From the IMG/VR virus record IMGVR_UViG_3300017963_000119, positions 1 through 43,362 of that record: a DNA stretch of 43,362 nucleotides; one strand, 5' to 3'. The translations under genes and the position numbers were made by a program. Positions 3,466 through 43,362 of the stretch are shown here, in pieces. Every line of letters begins with the position of its first letter. Positions within the stretch are counted from its first letter, which is position 1. Under the pieces are notes generated by a model. It searched no databases, had not been told where the DNA came from, and saw only the letters and a program-made list of their open reading frames with translations. This DNA comes from a virus.

Positions 3466-3749
3466 ACCTCACCTCCATTGTCCTCTGGTCTATGCAATGG
3501 ACAGAAGTGCGAGCCGCGTTCTGCCTCCTGTATGCAGCGTTCCAGCGAATGTTTCATGATGCCTTTGCAACGGCCCCTACTCAGCAACATCCAGTCTCCA
3601 GATGTCATGAAGTAATCCACATCCTTAAGGTCAACAGCAACGCAGTCACCCCACCACATCAGTCCGAGTTCAGTGTTTGCCTGGGGCCCATACCGTCCGA
3701 CGTAGCGAAGGTGGGCTTTTCCTTCCTCTGTCACGACGTTCATGTCCAT
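3462..3749 (-). CDS. Small cysteine/histidine protein in the tail gene block
   Basis: 95 residues from ATG at 3749, directly after the stop of the upstream gene (TGA, one base, ATG). The C-terminal half has a Cys/His pattern (RCKG, ERC, HFCPLH) that could bind one zinc ion. The gene is coupled by ATGA to the tail tube gene. I do not recognise the family. A zinc-knuckle protein between tail completion and tail tube genes is unusual; it may be a morphogenesis accessory. Confidence 0.65.
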   Translation of the reverse strand: MDMNVVTEEGKAHLRYVGRYGPQANTELGLMWWGDCVAVDLKDVDYFMTSGDWMLLSRGRCKGIMKHSLERCIQEAERGSHFCPLHRPEDNGGEV

Positions 3750-3750
3750 G

Positions 3751-4239
3751 TCAACACGTCCTCTTGTCAATGGTTCCAGCAACCTGGAACTGGATCATAT
3801 AGACTCCCTCGTCCGTCAGCGTGTCTTTGCCGTACAGATAGAGGGGGCTCCCGATGTTGACGCCGACGAACCTGCCGACGTTTTGCAACGTGCTGTTGCC
3901 AGCCTGAGCCTCCGTTGTCATGTCAGCTTCGAGGGCTCCGACCATGTTGACATACGCCGCAGTCGGGAGTTCGAGGTCCTCACGGTCACCAGTCACTACA
4001 ACGCCAACGAAATTGATTAGGATATCGCACCTCATGGATGCCGCTGCCCACCATGCCATCTCTGGAGTCCCGAGCCATCCTGCGAGAAACGGCGCCCGTT
4101 CGTTCACCAGGTCCTCTGGTTCCATCTGCTTCTTGACCCACTTACCTCCGAAGATCCAGTCCGTGTACTCGTCCGCCTCGATCACGGCCCAGGCCGCTGT
4201 GATGGCATTGTACAAATAGTTCGTTCTCGGACTCAGCAT
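3751..4239 (-). CDS. Probable tail terminator / minor tail protein
   Basis: 162-residue protein located after a Mu G-like tail completion protein and before the tail tube, where lambda gpU-type tail terminators sit. It starts with a short helix-rich segment (NAITAAWAVIEADEY) and contains beta-rich stretches such as CDILINFVGVVVTGD and YVNMVGALEADM, consistent with the small alpha/beta fold of terminators. ATG at 4239 follows GGAGG ten bases upstream. No catalytic motif. The assignment depends mainly on gene order. Confidence 0.6.
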   Translation of the reverse strand: MLSPRTNYLYNAITAAWAVIEADEYTDWIFGGKWVKKQMEPEDLVNERAPFLAGWLGTPEMAWWAAASMRCDILINFVGVVVTGDREDLELPTAAYVNMVGALEADMTTEAQAGNSTLQNVGRFVGVNIGSPLYLYGKDTLTDEGVYMIQFQVAGTIDKRTC

Positions 4240-4245
4240 GATCCA

Positions 4246-4761
4246 TCACCCTCCACGATAGACGTACCCAAACCCTTTGAATGTATCTGCGGCATTCTTG
4301 AGCACATACTGGTGGATTCGGCTCATCATCCGTTTCAATGCAGCGTCACTCACCCTCATGACAGGCCTCGCGGCCATATCTTCACGTCCCTCCGTATGGA
4401 TCCTTGCCAGATTCCATTTCCCAATTTTGAGGTCTGTCCCAATTACAAGCGACATCTTTGAGATCTCTCGGATGTGTCCCTTCGCCCCTGGGGTCGTCAG
4501 TGAACGTTTTAAGGTGCCTTCGCGCTGCAATATGGGTCCTTTTCCGTATCCAAGCCTGATGCGTTCCTGGATCGTAGAGGGCTTCAGAGGAGACCACTTG
4601 GGACGGCCTTCTTTTCTGAACTGTTCGTCCATGTCCTTCTCAAAGTCCGAGGCGGCTTCTCTGAGGGGCTTCCTGAAATCCTTGAGGCGCTTGGACATCT
4701 CGACAAACCCTGCTGCGAGCTCCTTCTCTGGGAAGACGAACGCAAAGTTAAGCAATGCCAT
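4246..4761 (-). CDS. Phage virion morphogenesis / tail completion protein (Mu gpG-like)
   Basis: 171 residues from ATG at 4761 (GAGG nine bases upstream; overlaps the previous gene by 14 bases). The sequence shows the pattern of the Mu G / P2 S type tail completion family: a helical N-terminus, FRKEGRPKWSPLKPSTIQER, then ILQREGTLKRSL and a conserved IHTEGREDMAARP near the C-terminus. These proteins help join tail to head or finish the tail end. It is followed by a terminator-like and a tube gene, as expected. Confidence 0.8.
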   Translation of the reverse strand: MALLNFAFVFPEKELAAGFVEMSKRLKDFRKPLREAASDFEKDMDEQFRKEGRPKWSPLKPSTIQERIRLGYGKGPILQREGTLKRSLTTPGAKGHIREISKMSLVIGTDLKIGKWNLARIHTEGREDMAARPVMRVSDAALKRMMSRIHQYVLKNAADTFKGFGYVYRGG

Positions 4762-5338
4762 AGTTGTCGGCCTCCGCCTCTTCATCTGTCATGTAGTTTC
4801 GAGGATTGCGCGAGTACACCTCGACCATTTCCCTCAAGGTTTCATCGTCGAACACTGGCTCCCTGAACCTGGCCGAACTCACTGGCCCCTTCCTGTTCGC
4901 GTTGATTGGAGTGGTGCGTGCCTCGATGATGGATCCGTCAGGAGCCTGAATGAGCTTTGCCTCAGAAAGCCACTCGATCACCTTCTGGATCACCCGCGAT
5001 ATCCACTCCTCGAACTCATTCTTTCTGTCCATCCGCCCGCTCGCCGCGGCCTCATGCAAAGCATAGGCGGCTGCCAGCTCGTTCGCCCAATCTTTGACAA
5101 TGGGAGGGATATCTGCGTTGACCCACGAGGCAACCGTGTCCTCCGGATAATACATAATCATAAGCGGCTCGAGCATGTTCTGGGCCCTGATCTCTCCGAA
5201 GTCCAAGTCGTCCTGGACAAGCCCCCTGCTGCGCGTTGGAGCGGCTTCGGGATGTTCCTTGAGATAGTACGACCCGAACTCCAGCGTGGCCCACGTATCT
5301 TGAGTTGGCCCGACTACTGGCGGCATTATGATCGGCAT
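4748..5338 (-). CDS. Head-tail connector protein (gp36/DUF1320-like)
   Basis: 196 residues from ATG at 5338, with GGAGG seven bases upstream. The central part (LVQDDLDFGEIRAQNM, then IPPIVKDWANELAAAYAL) resembles small helical connector proteins of the Mu gp36/DUF1320 group, which form a ring under the portal. Gene position, just before the Mu G-like protein, supports this. The C-terminus is acidic (TDEEAEADNYGIA). Similarity is judged by eye; a profile search would settle it. Confidence 0.6.
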   Translation of the reverse strand: MPIIMPPVVGPTQDTWATLEFGSYYLKEHPEAAPTRSRGLVQDDLDFGEIRAQNMLEPLMIMYYPEDTVASWVNADIPPIVKDWANELAAAYALHEAAASGRMDRKNEFEEWISRVIQKVIEWLSEAKLIQAPDGSIIEARTTPINANRKGPVSSARFREPVFDDETLREMVEVYSRNPRNYMTDEEAEADNYGIA

Positions 5339-5349
5339 TTCCAGCCCTC

Positions 5350-6033
5350 CTATGGAGCAGACACGACAAGCTGCGGCGTTTGCGTCTGAAGTCCAGACTT
5401 CGTGACAACTACGATGTACGTCGCAGGATCCAGCCAGCAATACTCCTCCCAGTGCCCATCGACGTTCGTCATTGTGGACGCGACTATGTACTCCTGGCCC
5501 AGCCGTCCAGCATCGTAGTTCGTCTTCGAGTAGATCTTGATATAAGCGTCATCGACTGGCGCTAGATTTTCATCGAGGATTGTCATGGCATCAGCGACAG
5601 GATAGTCGTGATTCACTGGAACAGTCCCAGTTCCCAGCGAAGCACCACTTCTGGCCAGGTAAACTGAAACGGTATCAGCGCCCGCGTTGTCTCCGGAATT
5701 GTCCATCAAGGCCGCATAGGCTCCGACGTCTTGTCCAGAGGTCTGCCACAGCTGTGAGTACCTCCCAGTAGTCTCAATCTCAATCATCGTTTCGGAGGTC
5801 TCTGCTGTCTGAGAACTCTGCCACGCACCTACCTGCCAGTTCCACCAATACCCATCTGCGTGCCTGAACAGCGACACAGTTGGGCTCTCTCCAGATATCG
5901 GCTCGCCGGTGGCGCCGTCCACTAGGGTCAGCACGAGCTCGACGTCTTCACCTGGCTGGTGAACGTCCGAGAAAGCTGTACAGGCGGCTATCAGGTAAAG
6001 AACTACTGAAAAGAGCCCAACTGATCGCAACAT
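5350..6033 (-). CDS. Predicted lipoprotein with beta-rich (Ig-like) exterior
   Basis: 227 residues from ATG at 6033 (GGAGG eight bases upstream). The N-terminus is a lipoprotein signal: MLRS, a hydrophobic core, then the lipobox LIAAC with Cys18 as the likely lipidated residue. The rest is acidic and beta-rich, with DVELVLTLVDGATGEPISG resembling carboxypeptidase-regulatory or Ig-like domains and a second such repeat near the end (DENLAPVDDAYIKIYSKT). It lies among head and tail genes, yet should be exported to a membrane. It may alter the host surface (for example superinfection exclusion) or decorate virions. No known family recognised. Confidence 0.7.
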   Translation of the reverse strand: MLRSVGLFSVVLYLIAACTAFSDVHQPGEDVELVLTLVDGATGEPISGESPTVSLFRHADGYWWNWQVGAWQSSQTAETSETMIEIETTGRYSQLWQTSGQDVGAYAALMDNSGDNAGADTVSVYLARSGASLGTGTVPVNHDYPVADAMTILDENLAPVDDAYIKIYSKTNYDAGRLGQEYIVASTMTNVDGHWEEYCWLDPATYIVVVTKSGLQTQTPQLVVSAP

Positions 6034-6045
6034 GCTTCAGACCTC

Positions 6046-6357
6046 CTACTCGTCCAGCGGGATGCCGTCCATCAAGGAATCGAAGTACTCCTTGATGTCC
6101 TTGCATTCCTCTTCGAGCACGCGGCCGTTGGCTGCAACCCATGCAGCCCATTCCCACGTCTTCGCGGTGACAGTCACTGACACCTCATCCGTTTCCTCGT
6201 TCGGTATAATGTCGGTCACCCACGACTTGTACGGCTGGTGAGGAACTCCGAACCCTTTGGGGGTGAACATCTTGAGCTGTGCGCTCACGATCTTCTTGAT
6301 GTACTCGACGATGATAGCGCCGAGCCCTCCGAACAATCCTCCTGTTGCCTCTTCCAT
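6046..6357 (-). CDS. Small protein of unknown function in exported-protein cluster
   Basis: 103 residues from ATG at 6357, with AAAGGAG upstream at good spacing. The N-terminus has a Gly-rich hydrophobic helix (GGLFGGLGAIIVEYIKKIV) that could insert in or lie on a membrane, then a basic, mixed middle and an acidic C-terminus (LEEECKDIKEYFDSLMD). It stands between a TM/coiled-coil gene and a lipoprotein gene. A membrane-linked job such as lysis or envelope modification is possible but unproven. Confidence 0.6.
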   Translation of the reverse strand: MEEATGGLFGGLGAIIVEYIKKIVSAQLKMFTPKGFGVPHQPYKSWVTDIIPNEETDEVSVTVTAKTWEWAAWVAANGRVLEEECKDIKEYFDSLMDGIPLDE

Positions 6358-6370
6358 GGTTGCTCCTTTC

Positions 6371-6688
6371 TTACCCATACGGACTGGTTTTGTGCTGGTC
6401 GATGAACCTATCAACCAGCTTGTCAGTATTTGTCACAAGCCGCGAAATCTGCTCTCCCTGGGTGGCTTGCGACGTCTTCATGACAGCAACGTCAGTCTTC
6501 AAAGTAGCAATATCCTTCGCTTCTTCCTGCTGTTCGCTTTGCAGCTTCTTCAATCCATTGCAAGGCGGTACATGGCCGTTCCCCCTGCTCCTATTCAAGC
6601 TATGCTTTGCCACCCATGCTAACGCACCAATCCCTGTCACAAGCCCACTCAGAGCCATACCAAGCAGTTTCAGTTCAACATCTTCCAT
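6371..6688 (-). CDS. Single-TM plus coiled-coil protein (holin-like candidate)
   Basis: 105 residues from ATG at 6688, which overlaps the upstream stop by one base (TAATG). There is one predicted membrane segment at about residues 8-27 (LLGMALSGLVTGIGALAWVA), a polar linker, then a heptad-like coiled coil from about 45 to 95 (KLQSEQQEEAKDIATLKTDV and following). Phage lysis accessory proteins of the XhlA/holin type combine a coiled coil with one membrane helix, though usually in the opposite order. It is the best lysis candidate in a genome with no recognisable endolysin. Confidence 0.6.
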   Translation of the reverse strand: MEDVELKLLGMALSGLVTGIGALAWVAKHSLNRSRGNGHVPPCNGLKKLQSEQQEEAKDIATLKTDVAVMKTSQATQGEQISRLVTNTDKLVDRFIDQHKTSPYG

Positions 6689-7026
6689 TAGATTATTCCT
6701 GTTAGATCCTTGCACCTGGCACAATCTTCCATCATCTCTTCCAGCAATTCGCACATATCATCAAGTTCTCCATATAGAGCGACTAGATGAGTGGCAACTT
6801 CTGCAAACGACGTGAAGCTTGGAGGACTCGAAATGTATCCCTCGAGCCACGCCTTAAATCCAGCAAGCTTTGTCTGCATTCTCACATACGCACATGGCGG
6901 ACAGCATTCAACTCCTTCGATTGGAATCGTATGCTTTCTGCAAATGTCCTGAGCGCAGTCTTCGCACTCATTCAGCGGACTTTGCGTGGTTCCTTCTACT
7001 GCACATATATAGCATTCATCTGCCAT
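6688..7026 (-). CDS. Cysteine-rich, probably zinc-binding protein
   Basis: 112 residues from ATG at 7026 (GGAGG six bases upstream). The N-terminal 45 residues hold a treble-clef/B-box-like pattern: CYIC, ECEDC, C-x-x-H and CCPPC. The C-terminal half is an acidic helix with a second small group (ELLEEMMEDCARC). No family recognised. It is translationally coupled to the TM/coiled-coil gene downstream. Confidence 0.62.
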   Translation of the reverse strand: MADECYICAVEGTTQSPLNECEDCAQDICRKHTIPIEGVECCPPCAYVRMQTKLAGFKAWLEGYISSPPSFTSFAEVATHLVALYGELDDMCELLEEMMEDCARCKDLTGII

Positions 7027-7038
7027 ATCTTGCCTCCG

Positions 7039-8466
7039 TTAGTCCTTGAGCAAATACGCGGACGCGACTCTGCAAAAGTACACCGACTGAGCTTCTGGCG
7101 CATTGCATTCGCACTGAAATTCCCACCACCAATTCTGACTAACTGCTTGAGGTGTCGAGAGATCATAGTTAGCCTTGTGGTACCCAGTACTCCCCTGGCC
7201 TAGGTTGATTGTCTGGCTCGTAAGCGTAGTAGCTCCTATTGCGTCAGTTGACCTCTCTTTGAGCGTGAATGATATGATCTCGTCAACATCTCGCTGAGTA
7301 TATGCTTCAAGGTACAATCTATAAATGACCACCTGCGACCCATCTATCTGAGAGTAGACAGTATTTTTCTGCGTTGTCACAAGGGCATCTCCTAGAATCG
7401 TAACTTCGTGGCCTTCTGCCATTGCACATCCATAATAGTTTGCATGCTCAAGTATCGAGAACCGGTTAGCTCCAGCATTCAGCGTATCAAGATGAAAGTC
7501 CTTTGATATAAACGATCCATCTGGCCACTGCATGTAGTCAGAATTTCGCCCCACATACGACAAGAACACGAGAGTGCCATATGGGTCAAACTGGACCGAG
7601 GCCCTATCAGGATGTCCAATGATAAACTTCTCGTATTGAATGGACGGACTTTCTACATAGTCAAGTTCAAGCCACGTTTCGTCCGAAGGCACTCCAGAAG
7701 CGGTATTGTAGGTTGTGATGTCGTCTGGCAGCATCATAGCATCGTAGAACTGCGCATCGTTTGTGTCGATTGACGCAAAATGATCCGTGTCACTTCCGAA
7801 ACCACCATAGTTCGGAATGGCTGGGAGGATGTCAGTTGTCATCATTTGACCAAGCGCGTCGAGATGGACGCTCCTACCTCCAGACTCTGGGCCCTTGTAC
7901 ACAAAATCGTCGACGTTTCCTCCAGTTGCTCCCATGAAGTCGAGAAGGATGCAACTCTTGCTACTACAGTCAACTGTTGTTTTCAACGTGCTGCTGAAGT
8001 GGACAGTACCATCAGCTCTCAACCCATAGTCTTTGGAGTCTGCCCCTTCTAGGTGGAACGCCCAATCGTTCTCATCTGGAGTCCCTGACGACGTTTCAAC
8101 TCCATACGCAACGTAATCTCCTCCATCCCAATTTAGCTCAGATAGCGCATAGCCCTCTGAAATTGTGAATCTGAAATCTGCATCAAGTCCTACTCTGAGC
8201 GTAAGATCGCTCCCACCAGGCTTACCCAATGACACGTTTCCATCTTCGTCTATGCGCAACGATGTGACGCCATCATCATCGACCTCCAGCCCATTTACGC
8301 CATCCATGTCAAGCACAAGCGTTCCCGTCATCGTGTCGCCAGGAACCAAGACAAACCGATCCTGAAACATGAACATTCGCCCTGCTTCGGCACAGCACAT
8401 AGATGCAGTCAGGAGAATGATGGCTGCGGCAGCCGCTCCCACTTGAGATCTATTGGGATTGAACAT
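7039..8466 (-). CDS. Exported fibre-like protein with N-terminal signal peptide
   Basis: 475 residues from ATG at 8466, with AGAGGAG seven bases upstream. It begins with a Sec signal: short basic part, hydrophobic core (GAAAAAIILLTASM) and a plausible AEA cleavage site near residue 28. Next comes PGDTMTGTLVLDMDGVNG, the motif commonly seen in phage tail-fibre and collar-fibre stalks, followed by beta-rich sequence. The C-terminal part holds several cysteines (FQCECNAP, VYFCRV). A fibre-type protein with an export signal is odd, because virion fibres assemble in the cytoplasm. It lies just behind the two glycosyltransferase genes, so it may be their target or a secreted, surface-acting product. 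Confidence 0.7.
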   Translation of the reverse strand: MFNPNRSQVGAAAAAIILLTASMCCAEAGRMFMFQDRFVLVPGDTMTGTLVLDMDGVNGLEVDDDGVTSLRIDEDGNVSLGKPGGSDLTLRVGLDADFRFTISEGYALSELNWDGGDYVAYGVETSSGTPDENDWAFHLEGADSKDYGLRADGTVHFSSTLKTTVDCSSKSCILLDFMGATGGNVDDFVYKGPESGGRSVHLDALGQMMTTDILPAIPNYGGFGSDTDHFASIDTNDAQFYDAMMLPDDITTYNTASGVPSDETWLELDYVESPSIQYEKFIIGHPDRASVQFDPYGTLVFLSYVGRNSDYMQWPDGSFISKDFHLDTLNAGANRFSILEHANYYGCAMAEGHEVTILGDALVTTQKNTVYSQIDGSQVVIYRLYLEAYTQRDVDEIISFTLKERSTDAIGATTLTSQTINLGQGSTGYHKANYDLSTPQAVSQNWWWEFQCECNAPEAQSVYFCRVASAYLLKD

Positions 8467-9362
8467 CCACGCTCTCCTCTTTCGTTGAGCCACTCCTGGA
8501 AGACTTCTTCAAGCTGTGCTCGCTCCTGCTTCCCATGAAGTCCTCTGTGGCTCCCTTGTGCCGGGGGCCCTGGCAGATGATAGGCAACTGCTCTGGGAGC
8601 TACCCACAGCGAATACCCCTCCTGCCACAGTTTCAATGTAGTCGCCGTCTCACCCCTCCACCCGTTCGTCACCGTTGCAAACCCTCCAATCTCTCTGAGG
8701 GCCTGGACATTGTAAAGCCACATGCCATGAAGGATCGCAACCCAGTACACTCGATCAGACACAATCGGGGTCCTCTGATCGTCATTCGGGATGAGGCACG
8801 GTTTCCCGTGCTCACCCCGATCCCAGTAGAAGAAATTTCGTAGCCTGGCTGGATCCCTTAGCGGCGGCTGATCCCACAAGTCATCATTGGGATTGAGCGA
8901 CAATCCAGCTACGCACGCTATGCCTTTCCCGATAATGTCATAAGGGAGCCCCAGGGCGCCGTCATAGGCCTTGACGAGCTCTTCGATATAAGTCCCTTCG
9001 AGGACGTGATCGTCTTCCTCTCGAAGCCCCAGCTCGCTTTCAGTCGCCATGAGGGCGACGTCATAGGATTTGTCAATACCTCGACGTTTCACGTGGAACG
9101 CTCGCACGTTATGGTTCATCTTCGAGATCACCTCGAGGAGCAATCTCACCGCATCCACCCTATTGCTCCAGCATGGCCTCACCGAATCGTCAACCAGAAT
9201 GAGGTCCCAATCCTGATAGGTCTGAGCAAGCAACGACGCGAGAAAACCATAGAGTTCGCGCGGCCTATCCTTCGTTGCAACCTGCACAGTCACTCGCCCT
9301 ATGTTAGGCTCACGACCGCGCTCACGCCAGTCTTTCGCTGGAAGCTCCAACCTCGGCTGCAT
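8409..9362 (-). CDS. Glycosyltransferase, family 2 (GT-A fold)
   Basis: 317 residues from ATG at 9362 (AGGAG seven bases upstream; overlaps the GT9 gene by 41 bases). It carries GT2 hallmarks: an N-terminal Rossmann-like strand (GRVTVQVATKDRPRELYGF), nucleotide-sugar-binding VDDS at about 57-60, and a metal-binding acidic cluster EEDDH at about 115-119. A later GWRGETATTLKLWQEGY segment resembles the acceptor-side region of GT2 enzymes. It should transfer a sugar from a nucleotide-sugar donor to an unknown acceptor. Its coupling to the upstream GT9 gene and the location behind the capsid gene suggest that both modify virion or surface proteins. Confidence 0.88.
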   Translation of the reverse strand: MQPRLELPAKDWRERGREPNIGRVTVQVATKDRPRELYGFLASLLAQTYQDWDLILVDDSVRPCWSNRVDAVRLLLEVISKMNHNVRAFHVKRRGIDKSYDVALMATESELGLREEDDHVLEGTYIEELVKAYDGALGLPYDIIGKGIACVAGLSLNPNDDLWDQPPLRDPARLRNFFYWDRGEHGKPCLIPNDDQRTPIVSDRVYWVAILHGMWLYNVQALREIGGFATVTNGWRGETATTLKLWQEGYSLWVAPRAVAYHLPGPPAQGSHRGLHGKQERAQLEEVFQEWLNERGERGCSIPIDLKWERLPQPSFS

Positions 9363-10386
9363 ACTGAAACTCCTGCCTTCTCCCCAACATGACCATTGCA
9401 AACTCGAACACTTGATCTACGCTGATCTCCCTCATGCACCTTGCTGGCTGCAATTTGCCCATGCCCATCTGCCTGTACCTGTTCTGAGGACCTTCCCAGG
9501 CGCACTCATGCTCCTTCTTGAACCAGCACGTACATCTATGATTTGCGGACTTGCTGATCACCAGACAATCATTGTAGATCGGGTGCATGAACTCGTCAGC
9601 TCCTGGCCCACCAGACCAATCGAGCCAGGCGTCCGTCGGCCCGAACAACGCAATCTGAGGTATCCCAAGGGCAGCGGCGAGATGATGGTACCCACTGTCC
9701 GGACAAATCATGAGGTCCATACGCTCCATCAAAGCGGCAGATTCTCGAAACGTACAGTCACGGAAACTCGCACAATCGTCGTTGTGCCACATGCTCGTTC
9801 CCTTTTTCCCAAACAGACAGACGAGGATTTCCTCGGATGCGAACCGCCTCTGCAGCTCTTTGAAATGTTCGAGGGGCCAGTCCTTGACAACGTAGGCTGA
9901 TGCTGTCTGCATTCCAACGACCTGACGTTCTCCTGGGGATGGCAAGCCAGCCTCATCCCAATCCATGCTTGCGATCTTCCGCTCAATCTTCGAGACATGG
10001 TAGAACGGCGGCGTCAGCCCATCATAGTCAACCCCGACGTGATTGCACCACATCTCGATTCGATGCATCTCAATCTCAGGCATCGTGTTTTTCTCAACGA
10101 CCATCTCCGGTCCGAACATCTCGAAGGCCACATCGTAATCTTCCCACGCGAACTTTCTCCACCACGGCCTTGGCATTGGCTTTCGCATATTGGCGAGATA
10201 CGCTGGAGGTCCCGTGTCGTATACTGCACGGATGTCTGGATTGTTCGCAACGACCTGTGCGAACGGCATAGGGCAGAAGAAGTCTATTTCACAATCAGGA
10301 TGGGCTTCTTTGAAGAAGCGGACTGCAACCGTGATATCAAGGACGTCTCCAAACCCGCCCTTCGGTCGAATGAATGCCGCGTCCAT
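9322..10386 (-). CDS. Glycosyltransferase, family 9 (heptosyltransferase-like, GT-B fold)
   Basis: 354 residues from ATG at 10386 (AAGG upstream; the reading frame extends further, but into a stem-loop). The N-terminus has the GT9 pattern FIRPKGGFGDVLDITVAVR, with a Gly-Asp pair as in ADP-heptose:LPS heptosyltransferases. The C-terminal domain shows PDSGYHHLAAALGIP at about 229-243, followed by ALFGPTD, the donor-binding motif of the family. A Cys cluster (CTCWFKKEHEC) near the C-terminus resembles other GT9 members. It is the first gene after the major capsid gene and is separated from it by a strong hairpin, then overlaps the GT2 gene. Confidence 0.88.
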   Translation of the reverse strand: MDAAFIRPKGGFGDVLDITVAVRFFKEAHPDCEIDFFCPMPFAQVVANNPDIRAVYDTGPPAYLANMRKPMPRPWWRKFAWEDYDVAFEMFGPEMVVEKNTMPEIEMHRIEMWCNHVGVDYDGLTPPFYHVSKIERKIASMDWDEAGLPSPGERQVVGMQTASAYVVKDWPLEHFKELQRRFASEEILVCLFGKKGTSMWHNDDCASFRDCTFRESAALMERMDLMICPDSGYHHLAAALGIPQIALFGPTDAWLDWSGGPGADEFMHPIYNDCLVISKSANHRCTCWFKKEHECAWEGPQNRYRQMGMGKLQPARCMREISVDQVFEFAMVMLGRRQEFQYAAEVGASSERLA

Positions 10387-10405
10387 CTTTGATCCCTTAT
10401 CAAAG

Positions 10406-10444
10406 GGCGCCTCGGCTGCGAGGAGGAGTCTCAGCCGAGGCGCC
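10406..10444 (-). terminator. Perfect 13-bp stem-loop between capsid and glycosyltransferase genes
   Basis: GGCGCCTCGGCTG (10406-10418) and CAGCCGAGGCGCC (10432-10444) form a perfect inverted repeat with a 13-base loop. On the minus strand no strong T-run follows (CTTTGAT), so it is more likely a partial terminator or mRNA 3-prime end stabiliser. That would keep capsid mRNA high relative to the downstream glycosyltransferases. Confidence 0.75.
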
Positions 10445-10492
10445 AACGGTTTTTGGACCGCTTTCACGGCCCAGGGAGCGGATCATGTGCTT

Positions 10493-11563
10493 TTACGTTG
10501 GAACGACGTCTCTCGACACGACCCTGTCGGGGTCGGTCGGAACGGGAAGCACGTTCTCCTTGTAGAACACGCGAACTTCGGCGGGATCGCTGTGGAACTC
10601 CGTCCAAACGGCGGGCCCCATGACCACATCGAAGTCCTTCGCGTTGCTGTCCTTCGGCCTGAGGCATTCCCCAGTGAGAAGAACAAACGAGTCTCGCTGC
10701 GTTGGAGGCGGTAGGTAGATCACGATGCTGTCCGCAATGTACGAATAGGTCGTGCCCGCGGAATCCTCCCAGCGGTTCTCGTAGGTGTGAACGTTTTTGC
10801 GGTCAAGCCGCTTGACCATGTTCTCTTCCCACAGGCTGTCCTTCTTGGGATCGGAGGCCCACCGGTACACTTCGTCGTTTCCGAGAAGGTACCTATTCGT
10901 GACTAGGTTCATGTAGACGTCCGTGGGCATGTAGCCACTGTCCTGAACCATGTAGTCTCCGATGCCGTGCCACGTCTCCTCAGGGTTGGTTGGATCGCTG
11001 AGGATCAGCGCATCCGAACTCGACCAGTCGAGCGTTGTGTTCTCGCCCTTGTGAGTGGCCTTGAACTGGAAGTCGACGTCGAACGTGACGTCCTCGACGC
11101 CATCCGTGTCTTCACCGAGCTGCATCGAGATGGACCCCTGCAATGACTGCCAGATGGCCCACTCTAGCAGGTTGTCCCTCAAATCCTTGAGGAACTGGAT
11201 CTGCTCTTTGATGTGCTCGTTCGCCCGTTGCGTGGCGTTCTCGTTCCCTTCCTTCCCAGACTTCACCCATAGCAGGTAGGCTTCGTCCAACGCCACGCTC
11301 AGGTAAATGTGCCCGAACCTTGCGGCCATCTGGCGTTTCTTCTGAGGATCGACTCTCTGCGCTGGCCTGCCCTGCACAGAGAACGACCCAAGCCTTCGCG
11401 TGGCTCGTTTTATCGTCCACTGCGCGATGTCCGTGCCACCAAGATTTTTCTTGCGATTGTAGACCTCTGCAAGACCTACAAGGTTCTCGGCGTGCCCCAT
11501 CTGGTTGACCTGCCACGTAAGAGCATCGGCCTTGAGGTCAACGAATTCTCCGACTGTGTACAT
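10493..11563 (-). CDS. Major capsid protein (lambda gpE-like)
   Basis: 356 residues from ATG at 11563, with AAGGAGG nine bases upstream. It follows a decoration protein gene and a protease/scaffold gene, as in lambda-like heads. The sequence fits the lambda E-type fold: an extended N-terminal part, an HK97-like spine helix with basic and acidic residues (ANEHIKEQIQFLKDLRDNLL), and a C-terminal segment with YKENVLPVPTDPDRVVSRD, typical of E-family ends. It assembles the icosahedral shell. A stable hairpin follows the gene. Strong ribosome binding site and position suggest high expression. Confidence 0.87.
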   Translation of the reverse strand: MYTVGEFVDLKADALTWQVNQMGHAENLVGLAEVYNRKKNLGGTDIAQWTIKRATRRLGSFSVQGRPAQRVDPQKKRQMAARFGHIYLSVALDEAYLLWVKSGKEGNENATQRANEHIKEQIQFLKDLRDNLLEWAIWQSLQGSISMQLGEDTDGVEDVTFDVDFQFKATHKGENTTLDWSSSDALILSDPTNPEETWHGIGDYMVQDSGYMPTDVYMNLVTNRYLLGNDEVYRWASDPKKDSLWEENMVKRLDRKNVHTYENRWEDSAGTTYSYIADSIVIYLPPPTQRDSFVLLTGECLRPKDSNAKDFDVVMGPAVWTEFHSDPAEVRVFYKENVLPVPTDPDRVVSRDVVPT

Positions 11564-11577
11564 TCACCATCACCTCC

Positions 11578-12015
11578 TTACGAGGGGTTCGGACCCCTGA
11601 ACAAGATCTTCTGACCGATCTCGGATGCCCTTGCGTCATCATCAAGACCGATGCATCGAGGTCCGATCAGGACTCCGTGCTGAATGAGACAGCCAACGTG
11701 TTGGTCCAAGACGGTCACACCGTCGAGCGCTCCGTTCAGCATGTTCACTTCGTCTCCGAGCACAGCCGCGAATGTCTCTGCACCACCACTTCCACCCGAA
11801 TCGTAGGGCACCCACTTGTCTGTCGCAGTGAGCTGCGCCATGCAAAGGCCCTTACGCAAGGTGGTCGTCGGGGTGTTGCCTGCGTCCTCTGCTGTGGAAT
11901 CGATGACTCCACGCCGATCCGTGTCTCTACCGTGAGACCCGATGCGAATCCTGGAACCCTCGTACTCCTGGTCCTTGAGGATCCCCGTTCTCGTGATGCC
12001 ATAGTCGTCATTCAC
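11578..12015 (-). CDS. Head decoration protein (lambda gpD-like)
   Basis: 145 residues starting at GTG 12015 (AAGG upstream). The central part, LRKGLCMAQLTATDKWVPYD followed by a Gly/Ser loop and an AAVLGDEV strand, resembles lambda D-type head decoration proteins, which trimerise on the capsid surface and stabilise it. It lies immediately before the major capsid gene (14-base gap), the lambda D-E order. As an exposed surface protein it is a possible substrate for the nearby glycosyltransferases. Confidence 0.8.
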   Translation of the reverse strand: MNDDYGITRTGILKDQEYEGSRIRIGSHGRDTDRRGVIDSTAEDAGNTPTTTLRKGLCMAQLTATDKWVPYDSGGSGGAETFAAVLGDEVNMLNGALDGVTVLDQHVGCLIQHGVLIGPRCIGLDDDARASEIGQKILFRGPNPS

Positions 12016-18500: not shown

Positions 18501-18669
18501 GGCGGCCTCCACTCATGAGTTCCCTGTAGATGTTTCTGCCCGTGACTCTTCCGACTATGATCTTCGGGTTCTGCTTCGAGAGCCACTCCTTCAAGAGCCT
18601 GCGTGTCTCATCGTTTCCCTTTTTGAACTCGATCACATCATCACAAATCACAAACTCATATTTCTTCAT
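18466..18669 (-). CDS. Small protein of unknown function, coupled to methyltransferase gene
   Basis: 67 residues from ATG at 18669, overlapping the methyltransferase stop in ATGA. It has an alternating strand/helix pattern (KYEFVICDDVIEFKKG, then KIIVGRVTGRNIY). No motif recognised. Confidence 0.62.
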   Translation of the reverse strand: MKKYEFVICDDVIEFKKGNDETRRLLKEWLSKQNPKIIVGRVTGRNIYRELMSGGRREIQVHTDEDL

Positions 18670-19328
18670 TTGACCCTCACATACGCTTCGGTTCGCCAAC
18701 CCACGCTGAACGCTTCAATGTCTTCGAGGTCATACGGATTTGGAGTCTCAAGCTTCTGCCAGTCATCGAGACGACCCATCGCCCTCAGCTCGTCCACGCT
18801 CTTTCTCACCTGACTGTCGGTGATATCGTGGAACGACACAATCCCTCCCACGCAGACTCGACTCTGAAACCTCATGAAGTCTCGCAGCGTTGCCGGGTAG
18901 CGGTGGTCGGCGTCAATGTGAAGAAACACGACATTCTCCTTATCCTCAGCGAGCGTTGGGAATAGCAGTCTGGCTACTCGCTCTGACGCTCCGACCGCCA
19001 TTACAACTCGCTCTCTGACGTCCAAGGTCTCCAGGGCCCTCAGCACATCGAACATGTCTCCGTTGTCCTCATGGAAGGCGTTCGTGCCGAAGCCATCGAC
19101 CCCGACGACGTACCCATCAAACTCCTCCATCATGAAGGCAAGCATGGCGAGGCCCCCACCATGGAAGCACCCCACCTCGATTGCAATCGGAAGATCTACG
19201 ATGCGCCCATTGCCAACCCATCGTTTCTCACGCAGACGCTCATACCACCACTCATACTCAGTCGCATCACACGCCGCAAAGATGCGGGCCTCGAGCAGCT
19301 TCTGGATTCTCTTATGGATGTTCCTCAC
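18666..19328 (-). CDS. SAM-dependent methyltransferase (Methyltransf_24-like)
   Basis: 220 residues starting at GTG 19328, overlapping the upstream stop in GTGA. The SAM-binding core is visible: IAIEVGCFHGGGLAML (motif I), YVVGVDGFG, then VVFLHIDADHRYPATLRDF and GGIVSFHDI. This arrangement is typical of Methyltransf_24 / cephalosporin-hydroxylase-like enzymes that act on sugars or small molecules, often in surface-glycan gene clusters. Since the phage also encodes glycosyltransferases, a glycan O-methyltransferase is plausible. It is not a recognisable DNA methyltransferase. Confidence 0.8.
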   Translation of the reverse strand: MRNIHKRIQKLLEARIFAACDATEYEWWYERLREKRWVGNGRIVDLPIAIEVGCFHGGGLAMLAFMMEEFDGYVVGVDGFGTNAFHEDNGDMFDVLRALETLDVRERVVMAVGASERVARLLFPTLAEDKENVVFLHIDADHRYPATLRDFMRFQSRVCVGGIVSFHDITDSQVRKSVDELRAMGRLDDWQKLETPNPYDLEDIEAFSVGWRTEAYVRVK

Positions 19329-19486
19329 GCTTTCCTCCTCAGAGCCCTACGGCTCACGATTTCCGTCTGGCCATTCTCAAACTCAACGAGAACCGAGTTC
19401 ATCCCACCCACCTTCAAGATCCGACATGCACGGCCCTTCATGGTTGCTCGCTTCTCGTTGTTTCCCCACTTATAGACATACGTCAT
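19325..19486 (-). CDS. Small conserved-type phage protein (53 residues)
   Basis: ATG at 19486 overlaps the preceding stop in ATGA and its TGA overlaps the methyltransferase GTG. The short protein reads YKWGNNEKRATMKGR and later MNSVLVEFENGQTEIVSRRA, a basic beta-rich layout I have seen in many phage genomes without a known function. Confidence 0.75.
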   Translation of the reverse strand: MTYVYKWGNNEKRATMKGRACRILKVGGMNSVLVEFENGQTEIVSRRALRRKA

Positions 19487-20244
19487 TCTGGCAGCTCCTC
19501 CCATGTTCGACCGTCAAGCTCACGACCTTTCAGTTCAGACTTGGATCCCCACGACTTGAACCAGAACGGAACGCCTGCCCTTTGGCATTCGTCCCTGATC
19601 TCCCTGACTATTCCTCGCGTGCACGGCCTCGCCCTTGGCCCTGTCTCACCACCTGCCACAACCCAGTCCACGCAGACGAGGTCTTCCTGTCTGAGTTCCG
19701 ACATCTTGAATAGTGGCTCAATGGACAAGAACTTCGTCACCCACTCAGGTAGATGGCTCAGGGCATTCGATGCACGGTTGACCGAGTACTTGTCCCATGC
19801 GGAACATCCTGCCCACACGTTCTCTGGCCATGTCAGGTTCTTCACCTGTCCGAACGCTTTCCTTCTGTAGTACCAGTAACGCTCAAGATTGTCGCAGCGC
19901 TTCGTGAGCAGCATGAACGTGTGCTCCTGGCAAACCGCCATGACGCTGAAGATTTCGTCCCTCCAGTGTGAAGGCACGGCCTTACAGAAGAGATCTCCCA
20001 TGTCCACGACGAACACCCTTCGCTTCTTTCGCCACCTGAGAGGCTCGTGAAGACGCTCTGGCCAGAAGGTCGGTCGGAACCCGACGTACCGATCCCTCAA
20101 TTTCACTTCTGGATTGGCTGCAAGCCTGATTGCCATTCTGCGTGCCCAGCAATTATCCCAGCACGGGAATTCAGGCAGGCAACCCGTTACTGGGTTCCAC
20201 GTCTCTGTCCACCATGCGCCGTCGTCCATCTTGGATTTCCTCAT
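19483..20244 (-). CDS. Phage Gp37/Gp68-like (DUF5131) cysteine protein
   Basis: 253 residues from ATG at 20244, overlapping the upstream stop in ATGA. It has the family signature ETWNPVTGC, then PCWDNCWARRMAIR, with three conserved cysteines that may bind a metal or iron-sulfur cluster, and later VDMGDLFCKAVP, FMLLTKR, GGETGPRARPC and VPFWFKSWG. These are the conserved points of the DUF5131 family, which is common in phages and has no proven role; a radical-SAM-like fold has been proposed. The cysteine spacing here (C-x5-C-x3-C) differs slightly from the usual. Confidence 0.85.
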   Translation of the reverse strand: MRKSKMDDGAWWTETWNPVTGCLPEFPCWDNCWARRMAIRLAANPEVKLRDRYVGFRPTFWPERLHEPLRWRKKRRVFVVDMGDLFCKAVPSHWRDEIFSVMAVCQEHTFMLLTKRCDNLERYWYYRRKAFGQVKNLTWPENVWAGCSAWDKYSVNRASNALSHLPEWVTKFLSIEPLFKMSELRQEDLVCVDWVVAGGETGPRARPCTRGIVREIRDECQRAGVPFWFKSWGSKSELKGRELDGRTWEELPE

Positions 20245-20510
20245 TCCACGACCCTCCTCTCCCACCGCGTCGGCTTGAGCTGCCTCCTGTCAACCATGCC
20301 ATCATCCACTCCCTTGTCGGTGAGCAGCTGTCTCGCTATTCCTGGGAGACAGCAAAAGCAGAACAGCCCGTCGATTTCATCAAAAGGATCCTCGGACGGA
20401 TTGCACAGGATCTGGATCGCACAGCTCGCGTGGACCCTGACACCACACTCCTCGCACTTAACCGTGGACTCCCTTGGACCCAACTCCTCACGACAGACGT
20501 GGCAGTTCAT
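20241..20510 (-). CDS. RING/zinc-ribbon-like cysteine protein
   Basis: 89 residues from ATG at 20510, with GGAGG five bases upstream. The first ~60 residues have a C-x2-C, C-x2-C, H-x2-C, C-x-C-C order (CHVC, CEECGVRVHASC, FCFCC), like treble-clef or PHD/RING fingers. The basic C-terminus (RRQLKPTRWERRVVE) could bind nucleic acid. It starts a gene string that follows a terminator. Confidence 0.65.
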   Translation of the reverse strand: MNCHVCREELGPRESTVKCEECGVRVHASCAIQILCNPSEDPFDEIDGLFCFCCLPGIARQLLTDKGVDDGMVDRRQLKPTRWERRVVE

Positions 20511-31464: not shown

Positions 31465-32193
31465 TCACTTAGGCAGCCTGATCTGAATCTGCCTGCCCTT
31501 CTTCGAGAACTGGCCCGTGCTGACAACGTTGTCTCCCCACTTGTCCGCCAGCTTGCGGGTCATCTCATTCATGAACTCCTGCGACCTCACTTCCGCATAC
31601 CCGCCCTTGTTCCTGAACACAGCCCACACCGCCGTAAACCTTGTGTCCTGCCATATCCTTCTGTGCTTGGACAACGTTTGCAATGAGAAGTCGATGTCCG
31701 TGTGATACTTGAGCTCCTCATCGTACCGCTGGCCGTCGTCAATGTACCCCACACATCCGCCCCAGCAAACCGCTCGCAGATGGAACGGTTTATAATCCTG
31801 GTATCGCATCGGGTACCCCGTGCCAAGGAAGAACAAGTTCGTCCCGAGGTCCCGAGCGCAGATGAAGACATGATGCAGCACTTCCGTGCACATAGCCTCA
31901 TTCAGATTGATGATGCGCGGCCCTGGCTCCTGCAGCACTACTCCAATCGAGTAAAGGTCATCGTCCACGGTCACAATGCACTCGTCGTCTTTGATGTTGT
32001 CCAGCATCCAGTTCTTGATCTTTCCCAGGTGGCCAACTCCACACGGATGCCCAATCACCGGACGGCCCGTCGCAGCCTTGTATGTCTCAACCTCCTCTTC
32101 TGCCACCAGGAACTCGACGCGATTTGGAAACAGCCGCATGACCCCAATGTGAAGGTCGTCGGCCCGACCGTGACTCGGACAAATGATCCGCAT
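31465..32193 (-). CDS. GT-A-type glycosyltransferase-like protein (TET-associated GT-like)
   Basis: 242 residues from ATG at 32193 (GGAGG nine bases upstream). The N-terminus (IICPSHGRADDLHIGV, then VEFLVAEEEVETYKAATG) and GVGHLGKIKNWMLDNIKDDE, followed by CIVTVDDDLYSIG, match the layout of GT-A sugar transferases, with VDDD as the metal-sugar site. The overall pattern resembles phage DNA-base glycosyltransferases associated with TET/JBP systems, but I find no hydroxylase. It lies directly downstream of a ParB-like gene. DNA- or protein-directed glycosylation are both possible. Confidence 0.68.
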   Translation of the reverse strand: MRIICPSHGRADDLHIGVMRLFPNRVEFLVAEEEVETYKAATGRPVIGHPCGVGHLGKIKNWMLDNIKDDECIVTVDDDLYSIGVVLQEPGPRIINLNEAMCTEVLHHVFICARDLGTNLFFLGTGYPMRYQDYKPFHLRAVCWGGCVGYIDDGQRYDEELKYHTDIDFSLQTLSKHRRIWQDTRFTAVWAVFRNKGGYAEVRSQEFMNEMTRKLADKWGDNVVSTGQFSKKGRQIQIRLPK

Positions 32194-32196
32194 CTC

Positions 32197-32826
32197 TCAC
32201 GCCCTCCTTTTGAGGAGTTCCATGAGGACTTCCCCATCGAGGACTCGCCCAAGCCCCACTCGCGGTTTCTCTGTCCACCTGCACTTGACCATCTTGAGTC
32301 CAAGCGCCGTCTGGATGTGAGCGAAGTCCACTTCGTCATCGAAGACGAACACAACGTAATTGTGTTTCTCGTTGAAACGCGGAGAGATATCCTCTGCTGC
32401 CTGTGTGCGCGGTGACAGCGACTCACTCTTGCCCTTCTTGTCCTCAATGAGTTCGTGAAGCCTGAACGCCTCTACAAGGCCTCGCCCCATGTCAGTACTC
32501 TCAAGCTCGGCCAGGACCCCTCGGAGGTCCTTCGTGTACCGTCCCTGCAACGTGGCCGCATTGAGCGCGACCATGAGAGCCTGCTCCTTCTCCTCTGGGA
32601 CGTCCACGACATTTACGTCCACCTCCGTGATCCCTTTGGAGCGCATGAGCAGCAAACGCTTCTCACCACCAAGCAGGAACTTGGTGCGCTTGTTCCACAC
32701 CAGCGGGACGACCTGCCCGAACTCTTCGAGCGAGCGCCCTAGCGCCTCTCGATTCTCCTCAGCCATCACTCGCGGGTTCTTCGGATGGAACCGAATGTCC
32801 GCCACCTTCATCTTGACCACTTCCAT
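32197..32826 (-). CDS. ParB-like N-terminal domain protein
   Basis: 209 residues from ATG at 32826 (GGAGG upstream; 32811 possible). The first ~100 residues are a ParB/Srx-type domain: MKVADIRFHPKNPRVMAEEN, ALGRSLEEFGQVVPLVWN, LLGGEKRLLLM (cf. GHRR/GERR). The C-terminus is unrelated. Phage ParB-like proteins act in partition-like, transcription or DNA modification roles; adjacency to a GT-A protein (3-base gap) makes a DNA-modification link worth testing. Confidence 0.82.
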   Translation of the reverse strand: MEVVKMKVADIRFHPKNPRVMAEENREALGRSLEEFGQVVPLVWNKRTKFLLGGEKRLLLMRSKGITEVDVNVVDVPEEKEQALMVALNAATLQGRYTKDLRGVLAELESTDMGRGLVEAFRLHELIEDKKGKSESLSPRTQAAEDISPRFNEKHNYVVFVFDDEVDFAHIQTALGLKMVKCRWTEKPRVGLGRVLDGEVLMELLKRRA

Positions 32827-32846
32827 CTCTCGAGACCTCCTCTCTG

Positions 32847-33476
32847 TCAGAACAACGACTCTTGCTTCCGCGCCTCGGCCTTCTTCTTCCGTCCGTTGGA
32901 TCCCATGAACGACCAATCCTTCCAGTGCTTCGATGCCGACTTCGCTACCTTCTCGGCCTCATCGTGATAGGTGTCGGCGTACGGCAACCCGGGAGGGATC
33001 TCATTCTCAAGGTGATCACCCTCGCCCCAGAAGTCATCAATCGTCTTCCCCATCTGCCGCCCGCGTTTCGTATGTTTGTCCAGTGCCCACTCGGGAACTT
33101 CCAGGTACCACCCCTCCTCTCGTTGTCCGGCCACGAACGCTTGATAGTTGTGGATCTGTCTGGACTTCCTCGCCCGACACATCGCATAGACCACATGGGA
33201 AATGCAGAAGTGGGTGTCTCCGGTCCTGCGCTTTTCTCCCGCGAAGTCGAGGAACCATCGGTAGCAGACATCGACTAACTGAACGATGTCAGGCGCCATC
33301 TCCTCTAGGGCAATCACCCGCAATCGGTACCACAGATATTTCGAGTAGCCGTTGGACAGTTCCATGGCCCAATACAACGCCTCCGTCTCCATACCCCTTC
33401 GGATGGATTTCTGGAGAGCACTCGACACCTCATCGAGCGGATACCCTCCTCCCGTTCGGATCTCATACTCTGACAT
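32847..33476 (-). CDS. RarA/MgsA C-terminal-domain-like protein
   Basis: 209 residues from ATG at 33476 (GGGAGG seven bases upstream). The segment DEVSSALQKSIRRGMETEAL, then YWAMELSNGYSKYLWYRL, then RVIALEEMAPD is close to the C-terminal tetramerisation domain of RarA/MgsA, which acts at stalled replication forks. The AAA+ part is missing, so it may modulate host clamp-loader-like proteins. Basic C-terminus (NGRKKKAEARKQESLF). Confidence 0.75.
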   Translation of the reverse strand: MSEYEIRTGGGYPLDEVSSALQKSIRRGMETEALYWAMELSNGYSKYLWYRLRVIALEEMAPDIVQLVDVCYRWFLDFAGEKRRTGDTHFCISHVVYAMCRARKSRQIHNYQAFVAGQREEGWYLEVPEWALDKHTKRGRQMGKTIDDFWGEGDHLENEIPPGLPYADTYHDEAEKVAKSASKHWKDWSFMGSNGRKKKAEARKQESLF

Positions 33477-43036: not shown

Positions 43037-43362
43037 CTATGCCGGGGCCGGCACGTTGCGCCTTCGCTTCGAGGTCTCTCTCAGCGTCTCAGCATTGACG
43101 ACAAGGCTCCCAACTTCGACCTCGAGTTCTCCCTGGCGCTCACTGACATTTTCGATGGCGGCCACAAGATCATTGATTGCCGTCAACTGCTTTCCTTCGA
43201 TTTCGTACTGCTTACCAGCGAATTCTATGAAGCCGCCCCGAACGCCATCCAATCCAGCTACCTGCTGCTCTGCAGTCCCAAGCAATCTAGATGCCTCAGG
43301 AAATTCAGACGGAAAGATCTCACCAACCTCGCTCGGACCCAGCAATTCGCGTGCCGCTCCCA
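43037..43362 (-). CDS. Tail tape-measure protein, C-terminal part
   Basis: This is the end of the gene that begins at 1978 and passes through position 1. The frame is continuous and ends with TAG at 43039-43037. Part of this sequence (43240-43362) duplicates bases 1-123. The C-terminus contains a coiled-coil-like stretch (LEVEVGSLVVNAETLRETSK) and a basic end. A TTG at 43345 could be read as a start, but the frame is the interior of the gene. Confidence 0.9.
   Translation of the reverse strand, partial: GAARELLGPSEVGEIFPSEFPEASRLLGTAEQQVAGLDGVRGGFIEFAGKQYEIEGKQLTAINDLVAAIENVSERQGELEVEVGSLVVNAETLRETSKRRRNVPAPA
43240..43362. repeat. Terminal redundancy, copy 2 (identical to 1-123)
   Basis: Exact 123-base copy of the window start. 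See copy 1. Counting unique sequence gives 43,239 bp. Confidence 0.95.

Follow-up and report, generated by a model that had tools for sequence, protein, structure and literature searches.

The stretch of viral DNA analysed here (the window; 43,362 nucleotides, IMG/VR record IMGVR_UViG_3300017963_000119) carries an exact 123-bp direct repeat at both record ends (1–123 and 43240–43362), and is therefore very probably a complete phage genome with a unit of 43,239 bp. Practically every main gene lies on the minus strand, where the head block reads, in transcription order, TerL (phrog_38), a Mu-type portal (PF06074), a protease/scaffold protein (phrog_976), a decoration protein and the major capsid protein (MCP). 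A GT9-type glycosyltransferase, a GT2-type glycosyltransferase and a fibre-like gene follow, and then three small genes, a 227-aa protein and the neck and tail genes (Table 1). Because nearly the whole genome is transcribed from one strand, the label 'late operon' for the head block refers to clustering only.

Table 1 Features of the capsid–glycosyltransferase locus (window positions).
Feature	Position	Strand	Evidence or remark
Head decoration protein, candidate glycosylation target	11578..12015	-	phrog_3583 1.6e-9
Major capsid protein (MCP), Phage_cap_E type	10493..11563	-	PF03864 1.1e-13; phrog_29 1.1e-17
MCP–GT9 gap with strong RNA hairpin	10387..10492	-	Folding energy versus shuffles
GT9-type (heptosyltransferase-fold) glycosyltransferase, 354 aa	9322..10386	-	PF01075
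GT2-type glycosyltransferase, 317 aa	8409..9362	-	PF00535; overlaps GT9 by 41 nt
Fibre-like protein, predicted signal peptide, GDTMTG motif	7039..8493	-	GTG start 8493; overlaps GT2 by 85 nt
Cysteine-rich protein (11 Cys) of the inserted cassette, 112 aa	6688..7026	-	L002 relative 6589-6975, 33% identical
227-aa protein, predicted signal peptide, Ig-like/carboxypeptidase-regulatory-like	5350..6033	-	Weak PF13620; hydrophobic N terminus
First gene past the cassette; head–tail adaptor position of Jams/Reynauld, identity inferred from position only	4748..5440	-	

Two glycosyltransferases, a hairpin and a fibre-like gene behind the capsid gene

The initial annotation had described two glycosyltransferases with intact motifs directly behind the capsid gene, after a strong hairpin, with the second enzyme overlapping the first and an exported fibre-like gene next. 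Each of these elements stands, with export being a prediction. The first enzyme matches Pfam PF01075 (Glyco_transf_9) at 70.6 bits (cut-off 22; E value 1.7e-19), and most likely starts at the ATG at 10386, since its relatives in two other phages from IMG/VR scans (L002 and L003) begin at the same residue. A three-sequence GT9 profile searched against solved structures in the PDB gave confident matches to GT9 enzymes only (3tov 5e-8, WaaC 7e-7, WaaF 2e-6), and the motifs GDVL (the N-lobe Gly-Asp), K-WP and DS-HxA (donor) align with those of WaaC and 3tov. AlphaFold, with few sequences available for alignment, gave a poor model (pLDDT 44). The best nine Foldseek matches obtained with it are all GT9 structures at TM scores of only 0.28–0.40, a result that is supportive only for a predicted GT-B fold. 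Although the LPS-core enzymes WaaC and WaaF share the fold family and donor-site motifs, the phage protein is phage-borne, sits in a head block and falls far below the cut-offs for LPS heptosyltransferases. Its best NCBIfam match, heptosyltransferase I, is sub-threshold at 59.9 bits against 185.3. We rejected membership of the LPS heptosyltransferase I, II and III equivalogs, as the protein lies far under every model's cut-off; an LPS-core role is thus not readable from its sequence.

The second enzyme scores 26.6 bits with Pfam PF00535 (Glycos_transf_2; E 6.5e-6), narrowly above the cut-off of 23.3. Comparison with relatives places its start most likely at the ATG at 9362, and its VDDS and EEDDH motifs are kept in the L002 relative. 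Its AlphaFold model (pLDDT 34, few sequences) was not drawn on. Hydrophobicity analysis revealed no transmembrane-like stretch in either enzyme.

The gap separating the capsid gene from GT9 folds at −51.8 kcal/mol (z −4.9), a value that none of the shuffles equalled. The corresponding gaps in L002 and L003 reach z-scores of −4.9 and −5.0. In alignment, the stem sequences of the window are unrelated to those of L002 and L003 while the position is kept, and this retention of a stem through sequence change suggests that the structure is used. We rejected an intrinsic terminator, as no T-run follows the hairpin and a terminator scan allowing loops of 3–8 only does not list it. Most likely, the hairpin would act as an mRNA 3′ element that uncouples the level of the abundant capsid from the levels of the enzymes.

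The gene behind GT2 encodes a protein with a hydrophobic N terminus, typical of a Sec signal as judged by hydrophobicity, and a GDTMTG motif at residue 52; L002 retains the two. The protein has no Pfam or PHROG family match, and the name 'fibre' reflects the motif and the position of the gene. Further along, the 112-aa cysteine-rich protein also has a relative in L012, a fourth contig that continues the tail side, and the 227-aa protein is 54% identical in L002. Signal-peptide-like N termini are conserved in both the fibre-like and the 227-aa protein (counterparts at 4885-6579 and 7697-8377 of L002, and at 1299-1979 of L012); exported proteins are unusual inside a head–tail gene block. The first gene past the cassette has no family match and is followed by a neck/tail-completion protein (phrog_26).

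A conserved cassette at a fixed site

Single-sequence GT9 and MCP queries of IMG/VR matched nothing, and alignment queries recovered L002 and L003, each with both GT9 and MCP; the pair thus recurs beside capsid genes elsewhere, as a search proposed in the initial annotation had aimed to establish. L002 and L003 share 89% DNA identity, bear neighbouring sample numbers and are distinct genomes, perhaps from one sampling site. The order protease–decoration protein–MCP–hairpin–GT9–GT2 is kept in both. The L003 contig stops within GT2, and L002 additionally keeps the fibre-like and small genes, the gene for the 227-aa protein and the first genes of the neck. Identity between L002 and the window is 75% for MCP, 56% for GT9, 66% for GT2 and about 28% for the fibre-like protein, and GT9 is 56–57% identical to the window across L002 and L003. 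Synonymous sites are saturated between the window and L002, and dN/dS was therefore computed only between L002 and L003, giving 0.082 for GT9 and 0.081 for MCP. For GT2, conservation is judged from an identity of 66% over a synonymous distance that is saturated. The kept order, the identity and the low GT9 dN/dS indicate that the enzymes are functional genes retained at this site. In bacterial genomes, scans for GT9 and GT2 recovered no relative, although these pattern scans were narrow and are weak evidence of absence.

The nearest cultured matches of the portal and MCP are actinophages, at 22–26% identity only. Gordonia phage Jams and Rhodococcus phage Reynauld share the order terminase–portal–protease–decoration protein–MCP–two short genes–adaptor and have no glycosyltransferase at this head-gene site. 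Relative to their layout, the window holds about 5 kb extra, comprising GT9, GT2, the exported-type fibre-like protein, small proteins and the second exported-type protein. As cultured phages of the same order have no glycosyltransferase there, the pair appears to be part of an inserted cassette, in agreement with the earlier description of genes inserted in the capsid operon; at this distance gain and loss are not strictly separable, and insertion is the simpler reading. Phages often carry glycosyltransferase genes as cargo, and the cassette resembles an insertion, so the pair might be a passenger (moron) that has no virion role and sits in the structural block by chance. We hold this to be improbable, because the site and order are identical in three genomes, GT9 is under purifying selection, and GC and GC3 are near those of the neighbouring head genes. 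Recurrence in L002 and L003 likewise argues that the arrangement is more than chance.

Glycosyltransferases at structural-gene sites of other phages

Comparable arrangements occur in other lineages. In L005, an unrelated phage with an unrelated capsid protein (phrog_1357), two GT2 enzymes, a GT4, two methyltransferases, an epimerase and a deacetylase-like protein lie directly behind MCP (3669-11435); the Bacillus phage Pascal, a cultured relative of L005, has no glycan cluster annotated behind MCP. Magritte, the best cultured MCP match, encodes a GT4-type glycosyltransferase between the tail terminator and the major tail protein. Corndog-type mycobacteriophages (cluster O) carry an O-methyltransferase (gp35), glycosyltransferases (gp36–gp37) and a GlcNAc-transferase (gp38) in the portal–protease interval (PMC4351075). 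There, as in the window, several glycosyltransferase genes lie within the head block, and capsid modification has been proposed (PMC4351075), but the Corndog genes are not placed behind MCP, no GT9 is reported, and host group and phage lineage are different. In cluster J phages, the left arm is interrupted by glycosyltransferases (PMC3706429). Virion glycosylation has been reported for several mycobacteriophages, among them Che8 (Freeman 2023, cited through PMC11256854, PMC12619734 and PMC13313380). According to two of these sources, phage-encoded glycosyltransferases are tied to glycans carried by subunits of the capsid or tail tube (PMC11256854, PMC12619734), and glycans were observed on virions there. 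In the F1 phage Maravista, the glycosyltransferases are near the genome 3′ end and not behind the capsid gene. In actinophages, a glycosyltransferase together with a methyltransferase is read as a sign of virion glycosylation.

Protein modification by heptosyltransferase-like enzymes also has a precedent in TibC, a WaaC-like enzyme that modifies an exported protein (PMC4358343). Bacterial autotransporter heptosyltransferases (BAHT) of the TibC/AAH type have a WaaC-resembling GT-B domain and four conserved cysteines, and the phage GT9 has four C-lobe cysteines (C285, C287, C295 and C317) that are invariant in the window, L002 and L003. Their spacing is C-x-C-7-C-21-C, as against C339/342/358/370 of the TibC iron finger (PMC4358343). 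The N-terminal beta-barrel of about 97 residues found in BAHT (PMC4358343) is absent from the phage enzyme, in which GGFGDVL begins at residue 10, and the PDB profile search gave no sequence match to TibC. With neither barrel nor match, BAHT membership was rejected. In CcrBL9-type Caulobacter phages, gp179 is a PF01075 protein close to a methyltransferase and tail genes, but it adjoins a tail fibre and lysozyme and not the capsid, and is 33% identical across one quarter of its length. A literature search found no paper joining a heptosyltransferase to a bacteriophage genome, capsid and glycosyltransferase. L004, a 56.8-kb viral contig, carries two consecutive GT9 genes (7182-10437), the second fused to a methyltransferase.

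The initial annotation took a virion-linked role to be a novelty. This holds only in part, given the glycosyltransferases of the Corndog capsid operon, the protein-modifying heptosyltransferase TibC and the glycosylated virions reported for Che8; what is new is the GT9–GT2 pair and its site behind the capsid gene.

Proposed role and target of the pair

Our preferred reading, which we consider reasonably probable, is that the pair forms a soluble cytoplasmic two-step module that attaches sugar to a virion protein encoded in the same block of genes. We infer activity, donor, target and order of action from families and gene context. With a host nucleotide-sugar as donor, GT9 would add one sugar and GT2 another, yielding a short glycan in the cytoplasm; a host donor is proposed because sugar-nucleotide genes were not seen among the scanned proteins. 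Sugar modification of a virion protein, already raised in the earlier description, is the most likely role suggested by sequence and context. Both enzymes are glycosyltransferases by curated models and, in contrast to the lipid-linked enzymes of O-antigen conversion, have no transmembrane-like stretch; L002 keeps the pair between MCP and the fibre-like gene, and L003 keeps it after MCP; and a Methyltransf_24/CmcI-like gene is present elsewhere in the window. Recurrence at structural sites in L005, Magritte, Corndog and cluster J, together with the virion glycosylation reported for mycobacteriophages, further favours a virion target. A point against this role is that LPS is the substrate of the nearest GT9 relatives to have been characterised.

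In the main alternative, the enzymes alter LPS core or another envelope glycan of the host late in infection, blocking superinfection or freeing progeny from binding to debris. Most GT9 enzymes whose function is known take part in building LPS core, the best NCBIfam match of the phage GT9, though sub-threshold, is heptosyltransferase I, and phage glycosyltransferases are often read in this way, for example in pelagimyophages (PMC7029224). Soluble GT9 enzymes act at the cytoplasmic face, so no flippase would be needed. We nevertheless regard such a role as rather unlikely, as the pair sits inside the head block and overlaps the fibre-like gene, no membrane glycosyltransferase or flippase adjoins it, and parallels come from actinophages, whose hosts are without LPS and to which the window portal and MCP are nearest among cultured phages, if only at the low identity given above. 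A GtrABC O-antigen conversion system, in which a GtrA flippase adjoins a membrane-anchored GtrB, was rejected, neither glycosyltransferase being of the membrane type and the neighbours being head and tail genes.

Phage glycosyltransferases can also glycosylate hypermodified DNA bases, and the window contains a weak, below-cut-off match to a TET-associated glycosyltransferase (TAGT; PF20691) at 31465-32193 on the minus strand, adjoining a ParB-like gene (32197-32916). We consider DNA glycosylation by the GT9–GT2 pair highly improbable, as a search of the window found no members of the Tet/JBP oxygenase or thymidylate-synthase/hydroxymethylase families and the TAGT-like gene, 21 kb away, is the better candidate for any DNA role.

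For the favoured modification of a virion protein, the likeliest targets would be the exported-type fibre-like protein or the capsid/decoration protein, to which we give about equal weight. The gene overlap, the hairpin separating the enzymes from MCP, the predicted export signal and the TibC precedent (PMC4358343) point to the fibre-like protein. Its rapid divergence, not shared by the enzymes and head genes, and the known phage cases, which involve capsid or tail tube, point to the capsid or decoration protein. The far better conservation of the glycosyltransferases (56–66% versus 28% for the fibre-like protein) counts against a fibre-only role. A more specific proposal, that the heptosyltransferase-fold enzyme and GT2 glycosylate the phage's own exported fibre-like protein before export, as a counterpart of TibC-type adhesin glycosylation, seems to us doubtful, less likely than the host-surface role though above a chance passenger. 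Given virions or a co-expression system, the exported-type neighbour would ease identification of the target.

Phage virion glycosylation has been reported in few lineages. The conserved module, fixed behind the capsid gene in an uncultured lineage, and the unrelated L005 case suggest a wider spread of the trick, with repeated origins at the sites of structural genes. The methyltransferase gene of the window (18666-19328, minus strand; Methyltransf_24, CmcI rhamnosyl O-methyltransferase-like) lies upstream of the terminase genes and could serve a glycan pathway. A strong DUF5131 match is present at 19483-20265, also on the minus strand.
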